Positions 7,274 through 57,655 of a stretch of DNA of 64,000 bases are shown here, piece after piece. The stretch lies in contig CP079699.1 of assembly GCA_021383565.1 (NCBI GenBank), forward strand, positions 1,364,001-1,428,000, in the 5' to 3' direction. The position numbers were made by a program, and so were the translations under genes. The notes under the pieces were generated by a model. That model ran no database searches and was not told the origin of the DNA. It saw only the letters and a program-made list of their open reading frames with translations. How positions within the stretch are numbered: position 1 is the stretch's first letter; each line of letters opens with the position of its first letter. Source of the DNA: Levilactobacillus brevis (GTDB taxonomy: Bacteria > Bacillota > Bacilli > Lactobacillales > Lactobacillaceae).

Positions 7274-7312
7274 CAGGTTACCGGTTGAACGACTGGCAAC
7301 CTGTTTTCTTTT
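7274..7312 (+). terminator. intrinsic terminator of pepD
   Basis: Stem CAGGTTACCGGT (7274-7285) with ACTGGCAACCTG (7292-7303), then TTTTCTTTT. Confidence 0.85.
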
Positions 7313-7317
7313 GCTAA

Positions 7318-7907
7318 CTAAAGGTTGAAAGCTAGAAAACAGCTAGAATCCGTAGTATGACAAAGGTACCAGCCACTATAATATGTTAGTCGCGTACTGG
7401 CCGCCTTGCCGTTCGCCAAATTTGGTCTGGATCGCGGTGGGAAGGACGGGCCAAGCCAAAGAACGGTCTTGTCCCTCGCTTTGAGCCGTCAGCCGCGTCT
7501 CAAAGACGCCATTTTCCAAGCAAAACACTTGGAAAATCCCACGGCTGAGACCAAATTTGACTCACTCACGGCTACCTGAGGGGTATTCAATTAAGCTACA
7601 TTGCCACTCCAGCGGTGTCACCACGCGTTCAACGGTTTTCATCCAGCGTAACTGGAGGCAGCCAGAGATGGAGGTAGCCGTGATAGCGGTGTTAGCTGTG
7701 CATCAGCTTACACCGCGGGACGTGTTTGGAGACTGGCGAATTTTGCCAGGCTCCAAACCGAGCCGGAGGACCGCTTCCCGGGCCGCAGGCGGTCCCCACA
7801 GCGCCGGAATCTCTGGCAGCCGCAGGTGGTGTTAATGGCTTGTTTAATGGCGATAAGCCTTGCCAGCTGGGGCTGGAATGTGTTCGCAAACTCTCAACCT
7901 TTAGTTG
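7318..7907 (+). repeat. large structured intergenic element, family 1, copy A
   Basis: Conserved core about 7401-7830 (plus orientation) with homologues at 41349-41791 (minus), 57193-57655 (plus) and a deleted remnant at 51629-51760. Outer flanks form imperfect inverted ends (ACTAAAGGTTGAAAG near 7318; CTCAACCTTTAGT near 7895). Predicted helices: P1 7417-7427/7549-7559 (11 bp); P2 7448-7455/7468-7475; P3 7479-7485/7499-7505; P4 7511-7520/7528-7537 (10 bp perfect); long-range P5 7566-7576/7673-7683 (11 bp perfect); then an AGCTG hairpin, a GTTTGGAG..CTCCAAAC double hairpin and a GGACCGC/GCGGTCC hairpin. Open frames here are short, differ between copies and are read as chance. Fold-preserving changes between copies suggest an RNA gene or a folded mobile DNA element. 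Confidence 0.8.
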
Positions 7908-7914
7908 CTAATCC

Positions 7915-9216: not shown

Positions 9217-9376
9217 TTACATTAGTAGTAAGTGAGGGCAACAAAAAGAGTTTGAGAAAAATATTCCCAAACTCTTGTGTTTCCAATTTAGATAACCGAA
9301 ACGTGCGCCAAAAGGCAGCCGGTTCCGCCTAAAACTCTTAATGCCCACCGACTAATCGCCTATTATCCCACTCTGT
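9217..9376 (+). repeat. short intergenic repeat, family 2, copy 1
   Basis: Starts with TTACATTAGTAGTAAGT (9217-9233), then a CAAACTC hairpin and the conserved block CCGAAACGTGCGCCAAAAGG, CAGCCGGTTCCGCCTAAAAC, and CACCGACTAATCGCC. Related copies lie at 44686-44840 (core inverted) and 44950-45070. It occupies most of the pepN downstream gap; the rest of 9030-9216 holds only the weak promoter region of the membrane protein gene (TATACT on the minus strand near 9107-9102). Confidence 0.75.
9243..9276 (-). terminator. intrinsic terminator inside repeat copy 1, downstream of pepN
   Basis: Stem 9246-9254/9268-9276 (AAGAGTTTG/CAAACTCTT) followed on the minus strand by TTTTTGTTG. It is the first terminator met after the pepN stop at 9409. 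Confidence 0.75.
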
Positions 9377-41109: not shown

Positions 41110-41348
41110 GCCAATCCCTCCTCGAATTAATGGGCTAATCAGTCATCCAAATCAGCAATCACTATGGCGTTCCGAGTTCCCGTACTCCCCCGTGGTGACC
41201 CGGATTAACCATAATAATTCGACTTTCAATTCTACACTTAATCCCCTTATAAATAAAGAAATGTGACCGGCTAAAGATTGAAAACTTGAAAACGCTGACT
41301 CATTCTCAACTGGTACAGTTTTGGGGGTATTAAATCACCTATTATGAT

Positions 41349-41791
41349 CCACCTACGGCAGTCAGAAATTCCGGGGCTGTGGGGACCGCCTGCGGCCTAA
41401 GAAGCGGTCCTCCGGCTCGGTTTGAAACCTAGCAAAATTCGCCAGTCTCCAAACACGTCCCGCGCTGTAAGCTGACTTAAGACGTCAGCTAACACCGCTG
41501 TCACGGCTACCGCCATCTCTGGCTGCCCCCGGTTACGCCGAGTGAAAGCCACTGAATGTGTGGAGTCATCGCTGGTGTGGCAACGTTTGGTCAGTTTAAT
41601 TGGATACATCCTCATGTAGCCGTGAGTGAATCAAATTTGGTCTCAGCCGTGGGATTTTCCAAGGGTTCTGCTTGGAAAATGGCGTCTTTGAGACGCGGGC
41701 TGACGGCTCAAAGCGAGGAACAAGACCGTTCTTTGGCTTGTCCCGTCCTGCCCACCGCGATCCAGACCAAATTTGGCGAACGGTAAGGCGG
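41349..41791 (-). repeat. large structured intergenic element, family 1, copy B
   Basis: Read on the minus strand this copy matches element A (7401-7830) throughout. The outer stem CAAATTTGGTC/GACCAAATTTG, the CTTTGAG/CTCAAAG hairpin, the ATTTTCCAAG hairpin (here opened by one base), the long-range TCACGGCTAC/GTAGCCGTGA stem and the GGACCGC/GCGGTCC hairpin are kept. The AGCTG hairpin is longer here: AGCTGAC/GTCAGCT. It lies between divergent helD and the antiporter gene. The remaining 240 bases to helD carry a CTAAAGATTGAAAAC end sequence near 41273 similar to the 3' end of element A. Confidence 0.8.
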
Positions 41792-41938
41792 ACGGCAACG
41801 ACCACATATGATTGAGACTGACTATGCCTTGATCCACCAGGGCTACCAGTCACCTTTTGACTTTAGCGGCGGCTTAATTCCAGTTATCTGCCAATAACTT
41901 TGGTATACTTGAGGGGAAATTTTTTCGGGGGTGACTCT

Positions 41939-44685: not shown

Positions 44686-44840
44686 TTACATTAGTAGTAA
44701 GTAGAGCGTGGGACAAAAGGCGCTTAGTCGATGAGCATTTAGTTATTAGTTTTAAGCGGAACCGGCTGCCTTTTGGCGCACGTTTCGGCTATCTAAATTG
44801 GAACGCAAGGGTTTGGAAAGTTTTATCCCAAACTCTGGGG
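44686..44840 (-). repeat. short intergenic repeat, family 2, copy 2 (inverted core)
   Basis: Begins at the left with TTACATTAGTAGTAAGT (44686-44702) in the same orientation as copy 1, but the rest matches copy 1 only on the minus strand (TTCCAATTTAGATAGCCGAA, ACGTGCGCCAAAAGGCAGCC, GGTTCCGCTTAAAACT, ATCGACTAAGCGCC). So the core is inverted relative to the left flank. Confidence 0.75.
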
Positions 44841-44926: not shown

Positions 44927-44949
44927 ACTTAAGGCGTGCTTTTCATTTA

Positions 44950-45070
44950 TGGTGCCGAAACGTGTTCCGCGAGGCAGCCGGTTCCGCTTAACCCCATTCA
45001 GGCCAAAATCCAAAACCGGGATTTTAACCTGAATAACGTTAATGCTCGCCGACTCCCAGCCTCGCTCCAC
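44950..45070 (+). repeat. short intergenic repeat, family 2, copy 3
   Basis: Carries GCCGAAACGTG, AGGCAGCCGGTTCCGCTTAA and, after an inserted hairpin (ATTCAGG..AAAATC/GGATTTT..CCTGAAT), AATGCTCGCCGACT. More diverged than copies 1 and 2. It ends at the oppF stop. Confidence 0.65.
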
Positions 45071-45074
45071 ACTC

Positions 45075-46034
45075 TTATGACTTAATCAACGACGCTTCTT
45101 CCGCGCGTTGTCTGTACAACGACACCTCATCCTTCGCGGCGCGGACCCAGTGACGTGGGGAAATTTCGACTAAATGCCGTTCCTTACCGTCATTTTCACC
45201 ACTCCCGTCGTAGGCAATCTCTTCCCGTGTCCGTTCGAACTCTGGATCGGGCACTGGGACGGCCGACAGTAGACTCTTGGTGTAGTCGTGTAACGGATGG
45301 GCGTAAATTTCGTCAGCGTCAGCGATTTCTAACATCCGGCCGTAGTGCATCACCCCAATACGATCGGAGATGTACTTCACCATCGACAAGTCATGGGCGA
45401 TGAACAGGTACGTTAAGCCCTGTTCCCGTTGTAACTTCTTCATCAAGTTGACCACTTGGGCCTGAATCGACACGTCCAACGCGGAGATCGGTTCATCGGC
45501 AATCACGAACTTGGGGTTCACGGCTAACGCCCGGGCAATCCCGATCCGTTGCCGTTGCCCACCGGAGAACTCGTGAGGGTACCGGCTGGAGTGGTCCTTG
45601 TTCAGACCTACCGTTTCCAGCAAGTCCTCGACGCGTTTCGTCCGGTCGGCATCATCTTTGGCAAGGTGGTTGATATCAATCCCCTCGGCCACGATGTCCT
45701 TAACCTTCATCCGCGGATTCAGTGAAGCATACGGATCTTGGAAGATCATCTGCATCTCTTGACGAAAGTCATGTTGGTCCTGCTTACTGGTAAAGGAATC
45801 GACGTTCTTACCGTCAAACAAAATTTCACCAGAGGTTGGCTCGTACAGGTGAATAATCGCCCGGCCCGTCGTGGTTTTCCCTGACCCGGATTCACCAACT
45901 AAGCCAAAGGTTTCTCCCTTGTAGATGTCAAATGAAATGTCATCAACGGCGCGAACTTCATCAGCCTTGCCCACGTTGAAGTATTGCTTGAGGTGCTTGA
46001 CCTCGAGGATTTTTTCGGCATTTTCGTAATCCAT
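45075..46034 (-). CDS. oppF: oligopeptide ABC transporter ATP-binding protein OppF
   Basis: 319 residues. Walker A LVGESGSGKTTTGRAII, Q-loop region QMIFQDPYASLNPRM, signature FSGGQRQRIGIARAL, Walker B KFVIADEPISALDVSIQ and the H-loop YLFIAHDLSMV are all intact. With OppD it powers peptide import through OppBC. The N-terminal extension and the C-terminal oligopeptide/dipeptide domain (PHPYT-like HPLHDYTKSLLSAVPVPDP) assign it to OppF. The ATG at 46034 overlaps the oppD stop as TAATG. Last gene of the operon. Confidence 0.96.
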   Translation of the reverse strand: MDYENAEKILEVKHLKQYFNVGKADEVRAVDDISFDIYKGETFGLVGESGSGKTTTGRAIIHLYEPTSGEILFDGKNVDSFTSKQDQHDFRQEMQMIFQDPYASLNPRMKVKDIVAEGIDINHLAKDDADRTKRVEDLLETVGLNKDHSSRYPHEFSGGQRQRIGIARALAVNPKFVIADEPISALDVSIQAQVVNLMKKLQREQGLTYLFIAHDLSMVKYISDRIGVMHYGRMLEIADADEIYAHPLHDYTKSLLSAVPVPDPEFERTREEIAYDGSGENDGKERHLVEISPRHWVRAAKDEVSLYRQRAEEASLIKS

Positions 46035-47134
46035 TATTGCTGTTCCTCCTCTTCTTCAATCGGCGTGGCTGACTTCTGAGCAGCTAGCCAGTCCTGCTGC
46101 ATCTTGGCATACTTCTTCTGCCGTTCAACAATCTGTGCGGGTGGCGTCACCTTGGGCGCATTCGGATGCAGCAACCAAGTGGCCGCGTAGTGCGTATCGG
46201 AAACCTTGAAGAACGGTGGTTCCTTTTCGGTATCGATCTTCAGGGCGTACGCATTCCGAGCGGCAAAGGCATCCCCGGCCGGCGGATCCAGTAAATCCGG
46301 TGGCGTCCCAGGAATCGATGGCAAGGAATCACCACTCGAATCCAGCGTCGGCATCGAACTCAGCAAACCCCACGTGTACGGGTGCTTCGGGTTGTAGAAG
46401 ATTTCATCGACGGTTCCGTACTCCACGATCTTACCCGCGTACATGACGGCAACCCGGTCGGCCATTCCGGCCACCACCCCTAAGTCATGGGTGATGAAGA
46501 TGATCGACGTTGAAATCTTGTTTTGTAATTCCTTCATTAGGTTCAGAATCTGTGCTTGAATCGTGACATCCAGGGCCGTGGTTGGTTCGTCGGCAATCAG
46601 CACTTCGGGATAGTTAATCAACGCAATCGCAATCACGATCCGTTGCCGCATCCCACCGGAGAATTGGTGTGGATAGTCGTTGATCCGGTTTTCAGCATCC
46701 GTAATTCCGACTAACTTCATCATTTCCAAGGCTTGGGCCAACGCCTTTTCCTTCTTCATGCCCTTGTGAACCATCAGTGGTTCGGCGATCTGCCGACCAA
46801 TCTTCATGGTGGGATCAAGCGAGGTCATCGGATCCTGGAAGATTTCGGCAATGTCTTGGCCCCGAATGGCTTGCATTTCCTTCTCGCTCTTCTTTAGTAA
46901 GTCCTGACCCTTGTAGAGAATCGAGCCACTGACAATGTCCGCGTTCGTCGCGTTCAGACCCATGATGGTCCGCGTGGTTACAGATTTACCGGAACCAGAT
47001 TCCCCCACAATTGCTAAGGTTTCACCCTTCCGTAAATCCAAGTTAACGTCTCTGATTGCCTTAACGTCACCGGCATAGGTCTTGAAGTTAACTTGTAGAT
47101 TCCGGACCTCTAAAATATCTTTTTCATTATCCAT
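46034..47134 (-). CDS. oppD: oligopeptide ABC transporter ATP-binding protein OppD
   Basis: 366 residues. Walker A IVGESGSGKSVTTRTIMGL, Q-loop AEIFQDPMTSLDPTMK, signature FSGGMRQRIVIAIALINYP, Walker B VLIADEPTTALDVTIQ, H-loop IIFITHDLGVVAGMADR. The C-terminal oligo_HPY region (NPKHPYTWGLLSSMPTLDSS) is followed by an extension typical of OppD. Second ATPase of the pair; overlaps oppF by one base at TAATG and begins 13 bases after oppC. Confidence 0.96.
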   Translation of the reverse strand: MDNEKDILEVRNLQVNFKTYAGDVKAIRDVNLDLRKGETLAIVGESGSGKSVTTRTIMGLNATNADIVSGSILYKGQDLLKKSEKEMQAIRGQDIAEIFQDPMTSLDPTMKIGRQIAEPLMVHKGMKKEKALAQALEMMKLVGITDAENRINDYPHQFSGGMRQRIVIAIALINYPEVLIADEPTTALDVTIQAQILNLMKELQNKISTSIIFITHDLGVVAGMADRVAVMYAGKIVEYGTVDEIFYNPKHPYTWGLLSSMPTLDSSGDSLPSIPGTPPDLLDPPAGDAFAARNAYALKIDTEKEPPFFKVSDTHYAATWLLHPNAPKVTPPAQIVERQKKYAKMQQDWLAAQKSATPIEEEEEQQ

Positions 47135-49308: not shown

Positions 49309-50937
49309 TTATTTGGCAATGTATGCCTTACTGAAGTCCCAGTTAGCGCCGGTTGGGAAGTAAATTACACCCTTAACCTTGGACTTAACCAGTTGTGACT
49401 TCCCTTGTTGGTAAAGTGGGATGATCCCTTGTTCCTTCATCAACGTCTTTTCAGCGTTTACCATGTCATTCCACCGTGCGCTCTGGTTGTTGGCATCCTT
49501 GCCATCAGCAGCGGCGATGTCCTTGTCATAGGAACTGTTCTTCCATTGACCACGGTTGTATGAGTTGGTTGATGTGAACATTTCGAGGAAGGAAATAGCA
49601 TCTGGGTAATCAGCACCCCAGCCAGAAACTACGGCTTGGAATTGACCATTTTCAGAACGGCTCAACCGCGTCTTGAATGGTAAGTTGGAGTTGGTTACCT
49701 TGATGTTGCCCAGCTTAGACCATTGACTCTGTACGAATTCAGTGGCGTTCTTACCAGCTGGCGTGTCATCGGCCATCAAGGTTAAGTTGTAACTTGAACG
49801 ACCCGTTTCCTTCAAGGCTTCCTTCCACAGCTTCTTAGCCTTGGTTAAGTTCTGTGAGTAAGCTGAAGGTACAGCGGCTGCCGTCGTGAAGTCTTGACCC
49901 TTGTAGGTCGCTAATCCGGTGGAAACCAGACCCTTAGCTTGGGAAGAGCCATCGGCTAAGACCTTGTTAACGAATTGCTTCCGGTCAATGGCCAGTGATA
50001 AGGCTTGACGGGCCTTCTTGTTCTTCATCATACTGTCTTTCCGTTGGTTCAGTTCAATGTAGAAAGTCGAGGCCCCCTTACGTTCAACGTATTGCTTACT
50101 GTTCTTGTAGTTCTTTGGTTGTTGACCACTCAAGTAAGTTGCGTCCAGTTTACCACTCTGGTATTGACTCAGGGCAGTTTGTGGTTCCTTTATCGTCTTG
50201 AAGTTAATCTTCTTCAGTTTAACATTTTTGGCGTTCCAGTACTTAGTGTTTTTACTCAACGTCCAGTTATCAGAAGTCCCGGTCCAGTAAGTCAGCTTGA
50301 AGGGTCCGTTGTAAACGTTACTCTTGGCGTTCGTCGCGTACTTCTTACCGTACTTCTGAACGACTGATTGATCTTGTGGGAAGAACATTGGGCTGGCCGC
50401 TAAGGATGGGAAGTAGCTCGTAGCTTGTGTTAACGTGACGACTAACTTGTAGTTACCCTCTGCCTTAACCCCTAAGCTAGATACCGGCTTCTTACTCTTC
50501 ATGATTTCGTTGGCGTTCTTAACGGGCGCGTACATGTAAGCGTATTGTGAAGCGGTCTTAGGGTTGACGGTCCGTTGCCAGGCATACACGAAGTCTTTGG
50601 CAGTAACTTTATCACCGTTACTCCAGTTGGACTTCCGTAAGTTAAAGGTATAGGTCTTCCCGTCTTTAGAAACTTTATAGCTCTTGGCAACCCCAGGGTG
50701 AATGCTACTCTTCTTACCGAAGCGTAACAGACCTTCACCGGTGTTGTTTAAAGTTTCACCGGAAACCACGTCGGTTGCGGTGGAAGAATCCATGGATGGT
50801 AAGGCGGAACTTTCCATCCAGTTCAACGTTTGTTTACTTGCTTGACTGGAACTGCTCGACGATGACCCACACGCTGCGAGCAAGACTGCCGCGAACGTAG
50901 CCACCGTCCCGAGTTTGACTGCCGAATTGATTTTCAT
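49309..50937 (-). CDS. oppA: oligopeptide-binding lipoprotein OppA (operon copy)
   Basis: 542 residues. A lipoprotein signal ends in LLAACG with the lipidated Cys23. The SBP_bac_5 fold is evident (ATDVVSGETLNNTGEGLLRF, TYTFNLRKSNWSNGDKVTAK DFVYAW, LTLMADDTPAGKNATEFVQS). It captures peptides outside the membrane and delivers them to OppBC. First gene of oppABCDF. Promoter at 51003-51031. About 60-70% alike by eye to the two paralogues upstream, especially the N- and C-terminal blocks (KSKVKGVIYFPTGANWDFSK). Confidence 0.95.
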   Translation of the reverse strand: MKINSAVKLGTVATFAAVLLAACGSSSSSSSQASKQTLNWMESSALPSMDSSTATDVVSGETLNNTGEGLLRFGKKSSIHPGVAKSYKVSKDGKTYTFNLRKSNWSNGDKVTAKDFVYAWQRTVNPKTASQYAYMYAPVKNANEIMKSKKPVSSLGVKAEGNYKLVVTLTQATSYFPSLAASPMFFPQDQSVVQKYGKKYATNAKSNVYNGPFKLTYWTGTSDNWTLSKNTKYWNAKNVKLKKINFKTIKEPQTALSQYQSGKLDATYLSGQQPKNYKNSKQYVERKGASTFYIELNQRKDSMMKNKKARQALSLAIDRKQFVNKVLADGSSQAKGLVSTGLATYKGQDFTTAAAVPSAYSQNLTKAKKLWKEALKETGRSSYNLTLMADDTPAGKNATEFVQSQWSKLGNIKVTNSNLPFKTRLSRSENGQFQAVVSGWGADYPDAISFLEMFTSTNSYNRGQWKNSSYDKDIAAADGKDANNQSARWNDMVNAEKTLMKEQGIIPLYQQGKSQLVKSKVKGVIYFPTGANWDFSKAYIAK

Positions 50938-51002
50938 TAATATCCAACCCCTCTATGTGTTGTATGTGAAATAAATTGACATCCTCAAATTTGATGTTTC
51001 CA

Positions 51003-51031
51003 ATTGTATATTAGAAAACCATTAAAATCAA
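51003..51031 (-). promoter_or_regulatory. oppA promoter
   Basis: TTGATT (51031-51026), 17 bases, TACAAT (51008-51003). The ATTGATTTTAAT block around the -35 recurs before both other oppA genes. Confidence 0.75.
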
Positions 51032-51263
51032 TGGTAAAAACTAATAAAATTTAAATATGCAATTACAAATGCCGTTAAATCAACGTTTGTCGTGTAAAAA
51101 TAAAATTAAAAATCGTATTTTTTCTCATTTTGATGATAAATTTAAGATAACGCTTACATAAATATTTACCTATTATACATTCACTACGCAATTATCCCCC
51201 TGCCGAAATCGTTCGCTAATCCTAGACCGCCTCGCCAGTCCCTTACTCATGAACTTGCACGCT

Positions 51264-51279
51264 CTAGTCGATCGACTAG
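51264..51279. repeat. 16-bp perfect palindrome in the oppA1-oppA2 gap
   Basis: CTAGTCGATCGACTAG at 51264-51279, directly followed by GGTAGC which is inversely repeated as GCTACC near 51324-51331. The gap 51032-51628 has no other recognisable content and no ORF. Confidence 0.5.
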
Positions 51280-51628
51280 GGTAGCAATGGCCACAGAGAT
51301 TAGTCCCTTTTTTTAATCGGGAAACTGGCTACCCTAACCCCCTCTAAATCATCGTCGACCTCAGCCTTTGTCACGCCACTAGCGACTACATCTCCTCTTA
51401 ATTCCAAACTGAAGTGGCGGCTAATATACAATTTATGACGCCAGCGGCTTTATGAGAAAACTGCCACCACTTTTTCCCGAGACCGCCATCGCTACACTGC
51501 GACTTAAACCGGTTTAAAATCAGCTAAACGCCCTTTATCGCGTTTGTCCGTCTTGCGATGCCTAACTATTATTAAATGACGTACACAGCCATTCACTGCC
51601 GTTCACGACTTTCTTGCTAATAACTTCA

Positions 51629-51760
51629 AGGTTGAAAGCTCGCGAACACGTGCCAGCCTCCCCACAGTAGTCCAGACCAAATTTGGCGAACAGTAAGGCG
51701 GTCAGTCTTATCACACTATGGATTCTAGCTATTTCCTAGTTTTTACCCTTCAGCAAATAA
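51629..51760 (-). repeat. large structured element, family 1, deletion remnant D
   Basis: Both ends of the family are kept on the minus strand: the 5' part GCTAGAATCCATAGTGTGAT..CCGCCTTACTGTTCGCC and CAAATTTGGTCTGGA, and the 3' end GTGTTCGCGAGCTTTCAACC. The roughly 430-base middle is missing. It confirms the outer limits of the element as seen around copy A. Confidence 0.75.
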
Positions 51761-51763
51761 GCA

Positions 51764-51802
51764 TAAAAAGGTCCCCAGTAGGCAGGGACACCTTCTGGGG
51801 AC
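51764..51802 (-). terminator. terminator of oppA2
   Basis: Stem GTCCCCAG (51771-51778) with CTGGGGAC (51795-51802); minus-strand continuation CTTTTTATG. Confidence 0.85.
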
Positions 51803-51863
51803 ACATCGTTGACTCGGCTTTACTTCGCCAACGTTAGGACTAATTTACTTTTTAGAATGCGGC

Positions 51864-53489
51864 TTACTTCGCAACGTAAGCGCGGCTGTAATCCCAGTTC
51901 GCACCGACTGGAAAATAAACGACGCCCTTGACTTTAGACTTGACCAGCTGCGGCATCCCCGTTTGGTAAACTGGAATGATCCCTTGGTCCTTCAACAGAA
52001 CTTTCTGGGCATCCACCAGATTCTGCCACCGCGCACTTGGCCGGTTAGCATTCTTAATCGTGGCTTGGTCGATCAACTTGTCATAACTCTTGGAAGACCA
52101 TCTTCCGTTGTTGTAAGTATTGCCGGTCGTGAACAAGGACAGATCGGTGATTGGGTCTGGGAAGTCGGCACTCCAGCCACTGACGACAGCCTGGAATTGA
52201 CCATTCTGTGACCGAGACAACCGGGTCTTGTACGGAATATTCGAGTTCGTAACCTTGAAATTATCCAGCTTACTCCACTGGCTTTGAATGTACTCGGTCG
52301 CTGACTTACCGGCTGGCGTGTCATCGGCCAACAAGGTTAGGCTGTAACTCGTCCGCCCAGTCTCCTTCAGCGCCTGATTCCAAAGCTTTTGCGCCTTGGC
52401 TAGATTGTAAGAGGTTGCTGACGGAACGGTTGCTTCCTTGGCAAAGTCCTTACCATCACGAATAGCTAGCCCGGTCGACACAATCCCGGTAGCAGGCGTA
52501 GAGCCATCTTGTAAGACCTTATTGACGTATTGCTTTCTGTTCAGCACCATGGATAACGCCTGGCGAGCCTTAGTATTCTTCAGCATGGTATCCTTGCGCT
52601 GGTTCAGCTCAACGTAATTAATCCGGGAACTCTTACGTGAATGGAATTCCTTATCGTTCTTGTAGTTTTTCGGTTGTTGCCCACTCAGTGAGATAATATC
52701 CAGCTTACCACTCTGGTATTGACTGAGAGCGGTCTGGGGATCCTTAACGGCACTGTACTTGACGTGCTGAAGCTTAACAACCTTTGCGTTCCAGTACTTC
52801 TTATTCTTGGTCAGCGTCCAGTTGTCAGAGGTCCCGGACCAGGACGTCAACTTGAATGGCCCGTTGTAAACATTCTTCTGGGCGTTGCTGGCAAACTTAC
52901 TGCCATATTTCTCAACGGCCCCCTGATTAACGGGGTAGAAACATTGCTGCGCCACCAACGTCGGGAAGTAGCTGACGGGGTGGGCCAAAGTTACGACCAA
53001 CTTGTAGTCGCCATCCTGCTTGACGCCTAACGTCGACGGGGCTTTCTTCCCGTTCATAATCGCATTAGCATTTTGAATGTCAGCGTACAGGTAGGCGTAC
53101 TGGGAACTGGTCTTTGGCGCAATGGTTCGCCGCCAAGAGTAGACGAAGTCATGTGCCGTCAGCTTTTCACCATTACTCCACTGAGATTTACGCAGGTTAA
53201 ACGTGTAGGTCAACCCGTCCTTAGACTTGTGGTAGCTCTTTGCCAACCCCGGTAAGGTTTTGCTATTTTTACCGAAACGCAACAAGCCCTCACCCGTATT
53301 GTTTAGTGTCTCACCGGAAATAATATCCGTCGCCTTGGCATTATCCATCGAAGATAGCGCCGAGGTCTCCATCACGTGAATCGTTTGATCCTTGGCCTCG
53401 TTGGTCTTTGAGCTGGTTCCGCACGCTGCTAACGCTAGCGTCGCGATGCCGGCCACCGCACCTAATTTGGCAATTGATTTAATCCTCAT
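51864..53489 (-). CDS. oligopeptide-binding lipoprotein, OppA paralogue 2
   Basis: 541 residues. Lipobox LALAACG with Cys23, full SBP_bac_5 domain (TDIISGETLNNTGEGLLRFG, LTYTFNLRKSQWSNGEKLTA, LTLLADDTPAGKSATEYIQS). No permease or ATPase genes follow it; it probably shares the OppBCDF channel with a different peptide preference (inference from family). Own promoter at 53543-53571 and own terminator at 51764-51802. More basic and with a different central part from oppA1. Confidence 0.93.
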   Translation of the reverse strand: MRIKSIAKLGAVAGIATLALAACGTSSKTNEAKDQTIHVMETSALSSMDNAKATDIISGETLNNTGEGLLRFGKNSKTLPGLAKSYHKSKDGLTYTFNLRKSQWSNGEKLTAHDFVYSWRRTIAPKTSSQYAYLYADIQNANAIMNGKKAPSTLGVKQDGDYKLVVTLAHPVSYFPTLVAQQCFYPVNQGAVEKYGSKFASNAQKNVYNGPFKLTSWSGTSDNWTLTKNKKYWNAKVVKLQHVKYSAVKDPQTALSQYQSGKLDIISLSGQQPKNYKNDKEFHSRKSSRINYVELNQRKDTMLKNTKARQALSMVLNRKQYVNKVLQDGSTPATGIVSTGLAIRDGKDFAKEATVPSATSYNLAKAQKLWNQALKETGRTSYSLTLLADDTPAGKSATEYIQSQWSKLDNFKVTNSNIPYKTRLSRSQNGQFQAVVSGWSADFPDPITDLSLFTTGNTYNNGRWSSKSYDKLIDQATIKNANRPSARWQNLVDAQKVLLKDQGIIPVYQTGMPQLVKSKVKGVVYFPVGANWDYSRAYVAK

Positions 53490-53542
53490 ATAAATTCCGA
53501 CCCCTTCACAAATTAACCGCTAGTAACATAACGTTGAATAAC

Positions 53543-53571
53543 ATGTTAAATTACAAAACGATTAGAATCAA
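53543..53571 (-). promoter_or_regulatory. promoter of oppA2
   Basis: TTGATT (53571-53566), 17 bases, TAACAT (53548-53543), in the shared ATTGATTCTAAT context. Confidence 0.7.
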
Positions 53572-53680
53572 TAGTGAATTTTAATATTAGTGATTAACCC
53601 CGCTCACAAATACCGCAAACATGGGGAGCCAGAGTTGAAAAATAATTTATTATCACCCAATTCATTCGGAAATGTCGCCC

Positions 53681-53720
53681 AAAAAGCGCCTAGAAGTCGT
53701 GCACAACTTCTAGGCGCTTT
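53681..53720 (-). terminator. terminator of oppA3
   Basis: A perfect 15-bp stem AAAGCGCCTAGAAGT/ACTTCTAGGCGCTTT (53683-53697/53706-53720) continuing on the minus strand as TTGGGC. Confidence 0.9.
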
Positions 53721-53762
53721 AAAGACTAGGCCACGGTGGACCCGATTTAATTCAACGCTTCA

Positions 53763-55391
53763 TTATTTACCAATGTAAGCCCGGCTGAAGTCCCAGTTCG
53801 AGCTGACAGGGAAGTAAATGACCCCTTTAACCTTAGACTTCACCAGTTGTGGCTTCCCACTTTGAGAAACCGGAATGATCCCTTGGTCTTTCAATAAGAT
53901 CTTTTGGGCATCAATCAGGTTTTGCCAACGGGCAGCTGGCTTATTGGCATTCGTGGTCGTGGCCTCGTTAATCAGCTTGTCGTAAGTCTTGTTCGACCAC
54001 TTCCCGTTGTTGTAGGAGTTATCGGACGTGAACAACGACAGATCGGTGATTGGGTCTGGGAAGTCGGCGCCCCAGAGCGTGACGACAGCATCAAATTGGC
54101 CAGACGCAGACCGTGACAACCGGGTCTTGTATGGCAAATTAGAGTTGGTGACCTTGAAGTTATCCAGCTTGGACCACTGACTCTGAACGTATTCGGTCGT
54201 ACTCTTCCCTTGCGCCGTATCATCGGCCATCAAGGTCAGCGAGTAGCTCTTCCGGCCCGTTTCCTTCAAAGCTTCCTTCCACAACTTCTGTGCCTTGGCG
54301 ACGTTGTGTTCCGTTGCGGCTGGGATCGTGCCTTCCTTGGCAAAGTCCTTACCGTTACGGATGGCTAAGCCGCTGGTGACGATTCCCGTAGCAACCTTAG
54401 AACCATCGTCCATCACCTTGTTGACGAATTGCTTCCGGTTCAAGACCAGAGACAAGGCTTGCCGGGCCTTTCGGTTCCGCATCATTGAATCTTTCTTTTC
54501 GTTTAATTCGATGTACGTTACCCGAGAGCTGTTCCGGGCATGGTAATCCTTATTGTTCTTGTAGTTCTTCGGCTGTTGGCCACTCAGGTAAATCGCGTCG
54601 AGCTTGCCACTCTGGTATTGGCTCAAAGCCGTCTGTGGGTCCTTGACCGCACTGAACTTAATTTGATGGAGCTTAACCTTCTTGGCATCCCAGTACTTGC
54701 TGTTCTTCGTCAGCGTCCAGTTGTCAGACGTCCCCGTCCAGTACGTCAGCTTGAAGGCCCCGTTGTAGACGTTGTTCTTGGCATTCGTGGCGTACTTCTT
54801 GCCGTACTTCTTCACAACCGTTTCATTTTGAGGGAAGAAGGCCGTTTGGGCCACTAAGGTTGGGAAGTAGCTGACAGGATGAACCAAGGTGACTTTGACC
54901 TTGTAATCCCCAACTGCCTTGATCCCCAGCGTGGAGACGGGCTTCTTCCCCTTCATAATGGCGTTGGCGTTCTGGACATCCGCGTACAGGTAGGCGTATT
55001 GAGACCCCGTCTTCGGGTTGACCGTGCGTTGCCAGCCGTAAACAAAGTCTTGAGCGGTCACTTTATCGCCGTTACTCCAGTTGGACTTCCGCAGGTTAAA
55101 CGTGTACGTCTTCCCGTCTTTAGATTTGGTGTAGCTCTTGGCTACGCCGGGATGGGTGCTACTATTTTTTCCAAACTTCAGTAACCCTTCACCCGTATTG
55201 TTCAACGTTTCACCGGAAACCACATCGGTGGCCAACGAATTATCCATCGTTGGTAAGGTAGAACTTTCCATCCAATTCAAAGTTTGGTTCTTAGCTTGCT
55301 TGTTACTACTTGAAGACGTGCCACATGCGGCTAACGAAATCGCTGCTAGCGTGGCCACCGTCCCTAATTTGACGATTGACTTAACCTTCAT
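53763..55391 (-). CDS. oligopeptide-binding lipoprotein, OppA paralogue 3
   Basis: 542 residues. Lipobox ISLAACG with Cys23 and full SBP_bac_5 domain (ATDVVSGETLNNTGEGLLKF, LTLMADDTAQGKSTTEYVQS, KSKVKGVIYFPVSSNWDFSR). Closest in the N-terminus to oppA1 (LNWMESSTLPTMDNSLATDV) and in the C-terminus to oppA2 (ADFPDPITDLSLFT), a mosaic pattern. Own promoter (55510-55538) and terminator. Expected to serve the same OppBCDF. Confidence 0.93.
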   Translation of the reverse strand: MKVKSIVKLGTVATLAAISLAACGTSSSSNKQAKNQTLNWMESSTLPTMDNSLATDVVSGETLNNTGEGLLKFGKNSSTHPGVAKSYTKSKDGKTYTFNLRKSNWSNGDKVTAQDFVYGWQRTVNPKTGSQYAYLYADVQNANAIMKGKKPVSTLGIKAVGDYKVKVTLVHPVSYFPTLVAQTAFFPQNETVVKKYGKKYATNAKNNVYNGAFKLTYWTGTSDNWTLTKNSKYWDAKKVKLHQIKFSAVKDPQTALSQYQSGKLDAIYLSGQQPKNYKNNKDYHARNSSRVTYIELNEKKDSMMRNRKARQALSLVLNRKQFVNKVMDDGSKVATGIVTSGLAIRNGKDFAKEGTIPAATEHNVAKAQKLWKEALKETGRKSYSLTLMADDTAQGKSTTEYVQSQWSKLDNFKVTNSNLPYKTRLSRSASGQFDAVVTLWGADFPDPITDLSLFTSDNSYNNGKWSNKTYDKLINEATTTNANKPAARWQNLIDAQKILLKDQGIIPVSQSGKPQLVKSKVKGVIYFPVSSNWDFSRAYIGK

Positions 55392-57189: not shown

Positions 57190-57192
57190 CAT

Positions 57193-57655
57193 CCGCCTTC
57201 CGTTCGCAAAATATGAGCTGGATCGCGGTGGGGAGGACGCCCCGAGCCTGAGGAGCGGTCTCGGGACTCGCTTGGAACCGCCAAAGACCGGCGTTTCCAA
57301 GTCGCCATTCCCTAACCGGCTTGACCCGCCGCTAAGGGAATCCCACGGCTGAGCTCATATTTTGCTTCACTCACGGCTACGATAGCTTTTACCACGGATT
57401 TGGGTGCTGTAGCTCGCCAGCTCGTAACGTGCTTCCAGCTTATCTGACGTTCAGTGCCCTCACCGTCAATGCCGGAGGAGGCCAGTAATGGAGCCAGCCG
57501 TGACAACGGTGTTAGCTGGCGTATTCTGCCAGCTTAGACCGTGGGACGCCTTGAGAGACTGTCGGGCTTTGACAGGCTTTCAAGCGAGCTGGAAGACCGC
57601 TCTTTGTCTGGAAGCGGTCCCCACAGCAGGCGGAATTGCTGGCAGCCGCAGGCAT
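57193..57655 (+). repeat. large structured intergenic element, family 1, copy C (diverged)
   Basis: Same order of helices as copies A and B but with different paired bases: P1 GCAAAATATGAGC/GCTCATATTTTGC (57206-57218/57353-57365, 13 bp perfect); P2 CCCGAG/CTCGGG (57241-57246/57260-57265); P3 CTTGGAA/TTCCAAG (57271-57277/57295-57301); P4 ATTCCCT/AGGGAAT (57307-57313/57335-57341); long-range TCACGGCT/AGCCGTGA (57371-57378/57496-57503); AGCTGGC/GCCAGCT; CTTGAGAG..CTGTC/GACAG..CTTTCAAG (57550-57584). The joining segments TGGATCGCGGTGG, ATCCCACGGCTGAG, ACTCACGGCTAC and GCGGTCCCCACAGC are conserved. Confidence 0.85.

Follow-up and report, generated by a model that had tools for sequence, protein, structure and literature searches.

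REP/BIME palindromes are marked by spread without target duplication and by a Y1 transposase, and the large RNAs GOLLD, ROOL and OLE reach several hundred nucleotides. REP sequences also serve as targets for insertion sequences, ISPpu9 and ISPa11 being examples (PMC1525189). Bacterial MITEs are described as typically AT-rich, this not being a requirement (PMC10969869). For the ISPepr1 subgroup of IS4-family insertion sequences, the published account gives a length of 1500-1600 bp, a target duplication of 7-8 bp, AT-rich targets and a YREK motif in the transposase (PMC2266710). Here we analyse a short remnant within a 64-kb stretch of a Levilactobacillus chromosome (the window, G000:C1:1364001-1428000, meaning the whole stretch at its full length), and conclude with high confidence that it derives by internal deletion from a MITE with 14-bp inverted ends, which an ISPepr1-like transposase of the IS4 family would move in trans.

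Results

An internally deleted copy between oppA-like genes

The original prediction had placed a remnant at 51629-51760, where the minus strand runs from the 5' part of a repeat (CTGAAGGGTAAAAACTAGGAAATAGCTAGAATCC...CGCCAAATTTGGTCTGGACTACTGTGGGGAGG) straight into the 3' part (CTGGCACGTGTTCGCGAGCTTTCAACCTTGAAG). A split alignment against the family consensus bore out this junction and, together with a profile match, shifted the limits to 51624-51753 (130 bp, minus strand). The alignment to the consensus of full-length copies scored 72.5, the highest score among 30 shuffled remnants, searched on a coarser grid, being 9.0, and the profile search recovered the remnant independently (58.5 bits, E 1.2e-17). 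It covers approximately the first 128 and the last 32 bases of the 601-base consensus, about 441 consensus bases being absent between the two parts, and its 5' outer zone is short of a further ~31 bases. Both breakpoints carry TGGGnA. The 5' terminal inverted repeat of the remnant, CTGAAGGGTAAAAA (51740-51753, minus strand), differs at three positions from the family end CTRAAGGTTGAAAG, and the 3' repeat, CTTTCAACCTTGAAG (51624-51638, minus strand), has one base extra. Outside these ends lie the two copies of the target-site duplication, CTAATAA (51617-51623) and CAAATAA (51754-51760) in the plus-strand reading, which are identical at 6/7 positions and differ at one.

The remnant is intergenic and is located between two oppA-like genes (SBP_bac_5). 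The intrinsic terminator of the upstream gene (51765-51802, minus strand; hairpin -21.1 kcal/mol) turns its T-tract towards the remnant, some 15 nt away. Three oppA-like genes of 541-542 aa stand in tandem here (49309-55391), the two that were checked being SBP_bac_5.

A high-copy family with defined ends

The window holds four members of the family: the remnant and copies A, B and C. Copy A (7318-7904, plus strand) is full-length, with both inverted ends, a core at 7401-7828 (plus strand) and a perfect 7-bp duplication, TTGCTAA, at 7311-7317 and 7905-7911. The predicted unit of about 590 bp with ends AACTAAAGGTTGAAAG / CTCAACCTTTAGT is right for this copy, which measures 587 bp between its TTGCTAA flanks; the terminal inverted repeats can now be drawn more sharply, as the 14-bp CTRAAGGTTGAAAG and its complement. 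Copy B (41271-41866, minus strand) has an intact core, a decayed 5' inverted end (5 mismatches) and a 3' end with 2 mismatches, and copy C (57192-57654, plus strand) belongs to a diverged subfamily and consists of the core alone, with no recognisable inverted ends. The full-length element, of ~590-640 bp, is non-coding: the open reading frames overlapping copies A and B are short (92 and 85 aa; their conservation among copies was judged from alignments), and the 587-bp unit contains no transposase gene. The protein adjoining copy A is 92% identical to that of Lactobacillus sp. HBUAS51381, the nearest named relative.

Two other repeats were noticed in the window. A second family of short palindromes, TTAAGCGGAACCGGCTGCC...GCACGTTTCGGCTAT, occurs at 9281-9341, 44743-44803 and 44945-44991, and similar sequence adjoins some copies of the element. 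A near-identical tandem gene pair lies at 14081-14380/15277-15576 and 14460-14759/15659-15958, in blocks that are 93-99% identical and ~1.2 kb apart.

We counted at least 67 family copies or fragments in the window's genome, grouped from fetched parts; this is a lower bound, the first look having given up to 170 candidates, with 40 of them scored per search. Relatives of copy A were found in 25 of the 35 Levilactobacillus genomes, and matches to its core in 16 of 301 genomes of the family sample, from 3 of 40 genera. Spread on plasmids or phages was rejected, since a 641-base copy A query had no match in either collection; an exact 22-mer had none in viral contigs. The repeat was not described in the literature searched, which included a text search for the end sequences.

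With up to one mismatch allowed, CTRAAGGTTGAAAG has 74 matches in the window's genome, against 2 for the reversed control, and the motif is present in 24 of the 35 genus genomes, where the reversed control gave 2 matches in total. When as many as 3 mismatches are allowed per end, 23 units of the window's genome have both ends, a count that still includes a 175-bp unit at 632832 whose right end is false, being a match in a core stem. The full-length set likewise retains a member at 1337790 despite its poor ends. Five of the 23 have perfect 7-bp and four perfect 8-bp flanking repeats, where swapped partners lead one to expect 0.0 and 0.045, respectively, and none has flanking repeats of 9-12 bp. 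Perfect duplications of 7-9 bp flank 11/17, 7/10 and 4/9 units in three sister species, and the 31 perfect duplications are AT-rich.

Deletion derivatives that keep their ends are common in the family, as the spread of unit lengths shows: end-bearing units range from 129 to 601 bp in the window's genome, where the other deletion derivatives measure 129-503 bp, and in genome G003 they span 281-644 bp, some of the derivatives there being flanked by perfect duplications. The proposal that the unit is a mobile, non-autonomous element with end-keeping deletion derivatives thus finds support in the inverted ends, in 7-8 bp duplications in four genomes, in these derivatives and in an IS4-type element with the same ends.

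A candidate autonomous partner of IS4 type

A search for end motifs facing each other found this element, which is apparently intact and 1559 bp long, in the genome of a sister species, G013 (contig C114, 14610-16168; L363:311-1869). It has two perfect 14-bp ends, an 8-bp duplication, CTGATTAA, and one 450-aa transposase gene product, and it too sits directly behind a terminator. The transposase matches the NCBIfam IS4 model with E 5.6e-141 (next-best model 3.8e-30), has the YREK motif YARRWQIEGYFKVAK at residues 329-343, spaced Y(2)R(3)E(6)K, and shows a DDE arrangement of D114/115, D221 and E336; its comparison with PDB sequences gave none at E <= 0.1. The ends agree with 7 of the 8 letters of the ISPepr1 subgroup pattern YT-AA-YTT---A, and by length, end letters, duplication and motifs the predicted partner fits this IS4 subgroup. 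Two further candidates from G003, C61 (3.9 kb) and C56 (5.9 kb), had been picked for their facing inverted ends and were rejected as autonomous elements, being ordinary chromosomal genes between separate ends.

The same perfect end accompanies transposase homologues or fragments in genomes G005, G003, G019, G029 and G016, and a 69.5% homologue on a plasmid of L. plantarum. Matches to the transposase at E <= 1e-10 occur in 14 of the 35 genus genomes, several of them fragments or relatives of ~50% identity with another end. These ~50%-identical relatives carry a slightly altered end, CTGAAACTTGAAAG, so transposase and ends vary together. No intact transposase gene was found in the window's genome (0 matches at E <= 1e-10); a looser search recovered a 31-residue relic inside a 263-bp, internally deleted insertion sequence (L402:1420-1682) matching bases 1-143 (76%) and 1440-1559 (88%) of the IS. 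Since only this relic of the partner is present there, the copies in the window's genome are probably orphaned. Outside the 14-bp ends no similarity between the MITE and the IS is visible by eye, so the MITE did not arise from the G013 element simply by loss of its interior.

Insertion sites

Intrinsic terminators face 29 of the 74 ends in the window's genome, some false ends being among the 74, compared with 225 of 3000 noncoding control positions. For three sister species the corresponding counts are 11/34, 4/20 and 8/18 ends, against 81 of 2094 flanking positions. This proximity may reflect a target preference or selection for harmless sites.

Related genomes were examined for empty sites at two kinds of locus. 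Among the 19 loci listed for the gene pair of copy A, four with the pepD neighbour are element-free (L116, L118, L119, L120), and at L109, L111, L112 and L124 sequence of the element is present but differs in form or orientation, although base-exact joints could not be read across flanks that are too diverged. The exact limits of the element rest on the duplications, because no relative was close enough for a base-exact empty site. Of 29 loci that follow oppA-like genes, 8 contain element matches and 21 contain none, a comparison in which oppA paralogy makes orthology uncertain. Element relatives recur in this position in several sister species and in varied orientations (L193-L195, L199-L202, L204), as if the region downstream of oppA-like genes were a repeated landing place.

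A separate IS3-type element has 7 copies in the window's genome, six of which lie within the repeat core at one fixed site, GGTGGGnAGGA, the seventh (L248) being elsewhere. The six are found at 45037-46544, 812344-813843, 1049073-1050572, 1331856-1333363, 1805226-1806725 and 2530339-2531838 of G000:C1 (L233, L095, L245, L219, L241 and L025), three in each orientation, one of them judged from a single junction. Related IS3-type copies in other species are mostly outside the element.

A conserved, covarying core

The core of the element measures ~440 bp. We aligned 46 core sequences from several species, a subset of the 64 located, with that of copy A as row 1, and found the 87 proposed pairs to be 95.0% paired. 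Both sides have changed in 32 of the 87 pairs, against 16.3 (sd 2.1) in shuffles, and covariation cells number 191 against 57.5. None of 500 shuffles was as high on any of five measures, counts that differ from probabilities in that the 46 cores are related; slid structures scored far lower, a comparison in which the proposed structure has the advantage of having been drawn from one of the 46 sequences. A G-U wobble inside a stem is retained in 43 of the 46. The core is thus under constraint beyond the ends, since it covaries and is retained in copies that have no detectable ends.

Copies without detectable ends occur in one other species (G010). In 12 copies from G010 and G005 the core is near-invariant and sharply limited, and the flanks are unrelated. 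Among 11 copies from G010, shared flank words did not exceed the level of shuffles, as they did among copies from G022, G030 and G032, and a search for duplications around the core-only copies of G010 gave no consistent offset. Some end-bearing copies are present in G010 as well, where the end motif has 14 exact matches. Of all the observations this pattern points most strongly to a core maintained in its own right, but it could also stem from the decay of old ends or from gene conversion.

The ~440-bp core could be a structured RNA, or a DNA that forms hairpins, which functions independently of the transposon, the IS4-type ends being just one vehicle of its spread. We consider this possible, though on the weaker side of even: the doubling of covarying pairs, the end-less copies and the retained wobble all favour it, but the promoter evidence does not. 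In helices predicted on both strands, counts of G-U against A-C (18 vs 25, and 8 vs 14) single out no strand, owing to the symmetry of the core. A TATAAT box stands upstream of the core in 21 of 53 copies in the window's genome and 6 of 14 in G022, but in 0/18 in G030, 0/9 in G032 and 0/15 in G010/G005, so that a conserved promoter is unsupported outside the first two. No Rfam family matches the window at the gathering threshold; a known Rfam RNA was rejected, the permissive search having given two sub-threshold, unrelated matches (SNORA84 and rpsB).

The symmetry itself suggests another source of constraint. When the right half of the core is reverse-complemented, it matches the left half at 196 identities over 333 columns, above all 200 shuffles, and cores from four species score 69-93 against their own reverse complements, with shuffle maxima of 21-33; owing to this two-fold inverted symmetry both strands fold alike. 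The core might then be conserved solely for its own transposition or homogenisation, as a symmetric foldback that aligns the ends or promotes gene conversion between copies. We entertain this reading without thinking it probable, given that the core is retained in copies without ends, and that each half is mostly at least as similar to the same half in other species as to the opposite half from its own species, which gives scant indication that the halves have recently converted one another.

It is also conceivable, though we hold this rather doubtful, that the core represents a large, structured nucleic acid of a class not yet described (~440 nt, with ~12 mostly covarying helices, one pseudoknot-like pair and two-fold inverted symmetry). 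It would be maintained by selection, would occur both as cargo of IS4-type MITEs and in copies without detectable ends, and would be common to many species of Levilactobacillus and to two or more further genera of the family.

Discussion

For the element as a whole, a REP/BIME-like origin, in which a Y1/RAYT transposase spreads palindromes as single strands and leaves no duplication, would account for its extragenic position, palindromic character and high copy number and, as is described for REPs (PMC1525189), its use as an IS target. Clear inverted ends, 7-8 bp duplications and a DDE partner whose ends are identical make that reading very improbable; the absence of duplications that marks REP/BIME does not hold here. 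Chance similarity, or common terminator hairpins mistaken for one family, could draw on the ends that adjoin terminators and is refuted by end-to-end profile matches and by the 74 end motifs against 2 in the control.

We therefore return to the MITE as the preferred reading. An autonomous IS with the same ends would supply an ISPepr1-like, IS4-family transposase in trans, which would bind the ends of the element and excise or copy it; insertion would then duplicate 7-8 bp at AT-rich sites, often right behind intrinsic terminators. From the shared ends we infer that a transposase of the G013 type mobilises the MITE, and the middle of the remnant was presumably lost once the copy was in place, short repeats such as the TGGGnA found at both breakpoints having allowed slippage. 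Against this model stand the lack of visible similarity between MITE and IS outside the ends, the limited reach of the transposase (matched in 14 of the 35 genus genomes), the single mismatch in the remnant's duplication and the extra base in its 3' end, as well as the many G010 copies without ends or duplication, for which it accounts only as old, decayed insertions.

A high-copy bacterial MITE present in several species, with known ends, a known duplication length and a probable transposase, makes cross-mobilisation directly testable. A conserved, covarying, symmetric core is unexpected in a decaying MITE and offers a test case for whether structured RNA or DNA with a function is spread by non-autonomous bacterial elements. 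Copies near terminators may in addition affect read-through in food lactobacilli.

Comparison with known systems

The many conserved stems of the core recall the large ornate RNAs GOLLD, ROOL and OLE, of which GOLLD is named after Lactobacillales; the core differs from these RNAs (PMC12286853) in having no Rfam match at the gathering threshold and in being carried by a transposon that is present many times in each genome. The IS3-type element resembles the insertion sequences that target REPs, 6 of its 7 copies sharing a single insertion point in an extragenic, palindromic repeat; the target is a 600-bp MITE here and a short REP there (PMC1525189). To the ISPepr1 subgroup as characterised in the literature (PMC2266710) the partner is alike in its 1559 bp, 8-bp duplication, 7 of 8 end letters, AT-rich targets and YREK motif, whereas the MITE is without a transposase and has the ends alone in common with such elements. 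Closest among bacterial MITEs is QMITE2 of Coxiella burnetii, which, according to the review (PMC10969869), likewise has no transposase gene, inverted ends, strong predicted folding and a mostly intergenic location, with direct repeats of 7-9 bp where the Levilactobacillus element has 7-8 bp. The core of the latter is longer, at ~440 bp where QMITE2 has 113-145 bp, and the element is G+C-rich (54.3% in copy A, against 48.0% for the window), unlike the typically AT-rich MITEs of that review. The element is of a known kind, a MITE probably driven by an IS4-type transposase, and its unusual part is a symmetric core that, unlike QMITE2 and other MITEs, covaries and is conserved across species.
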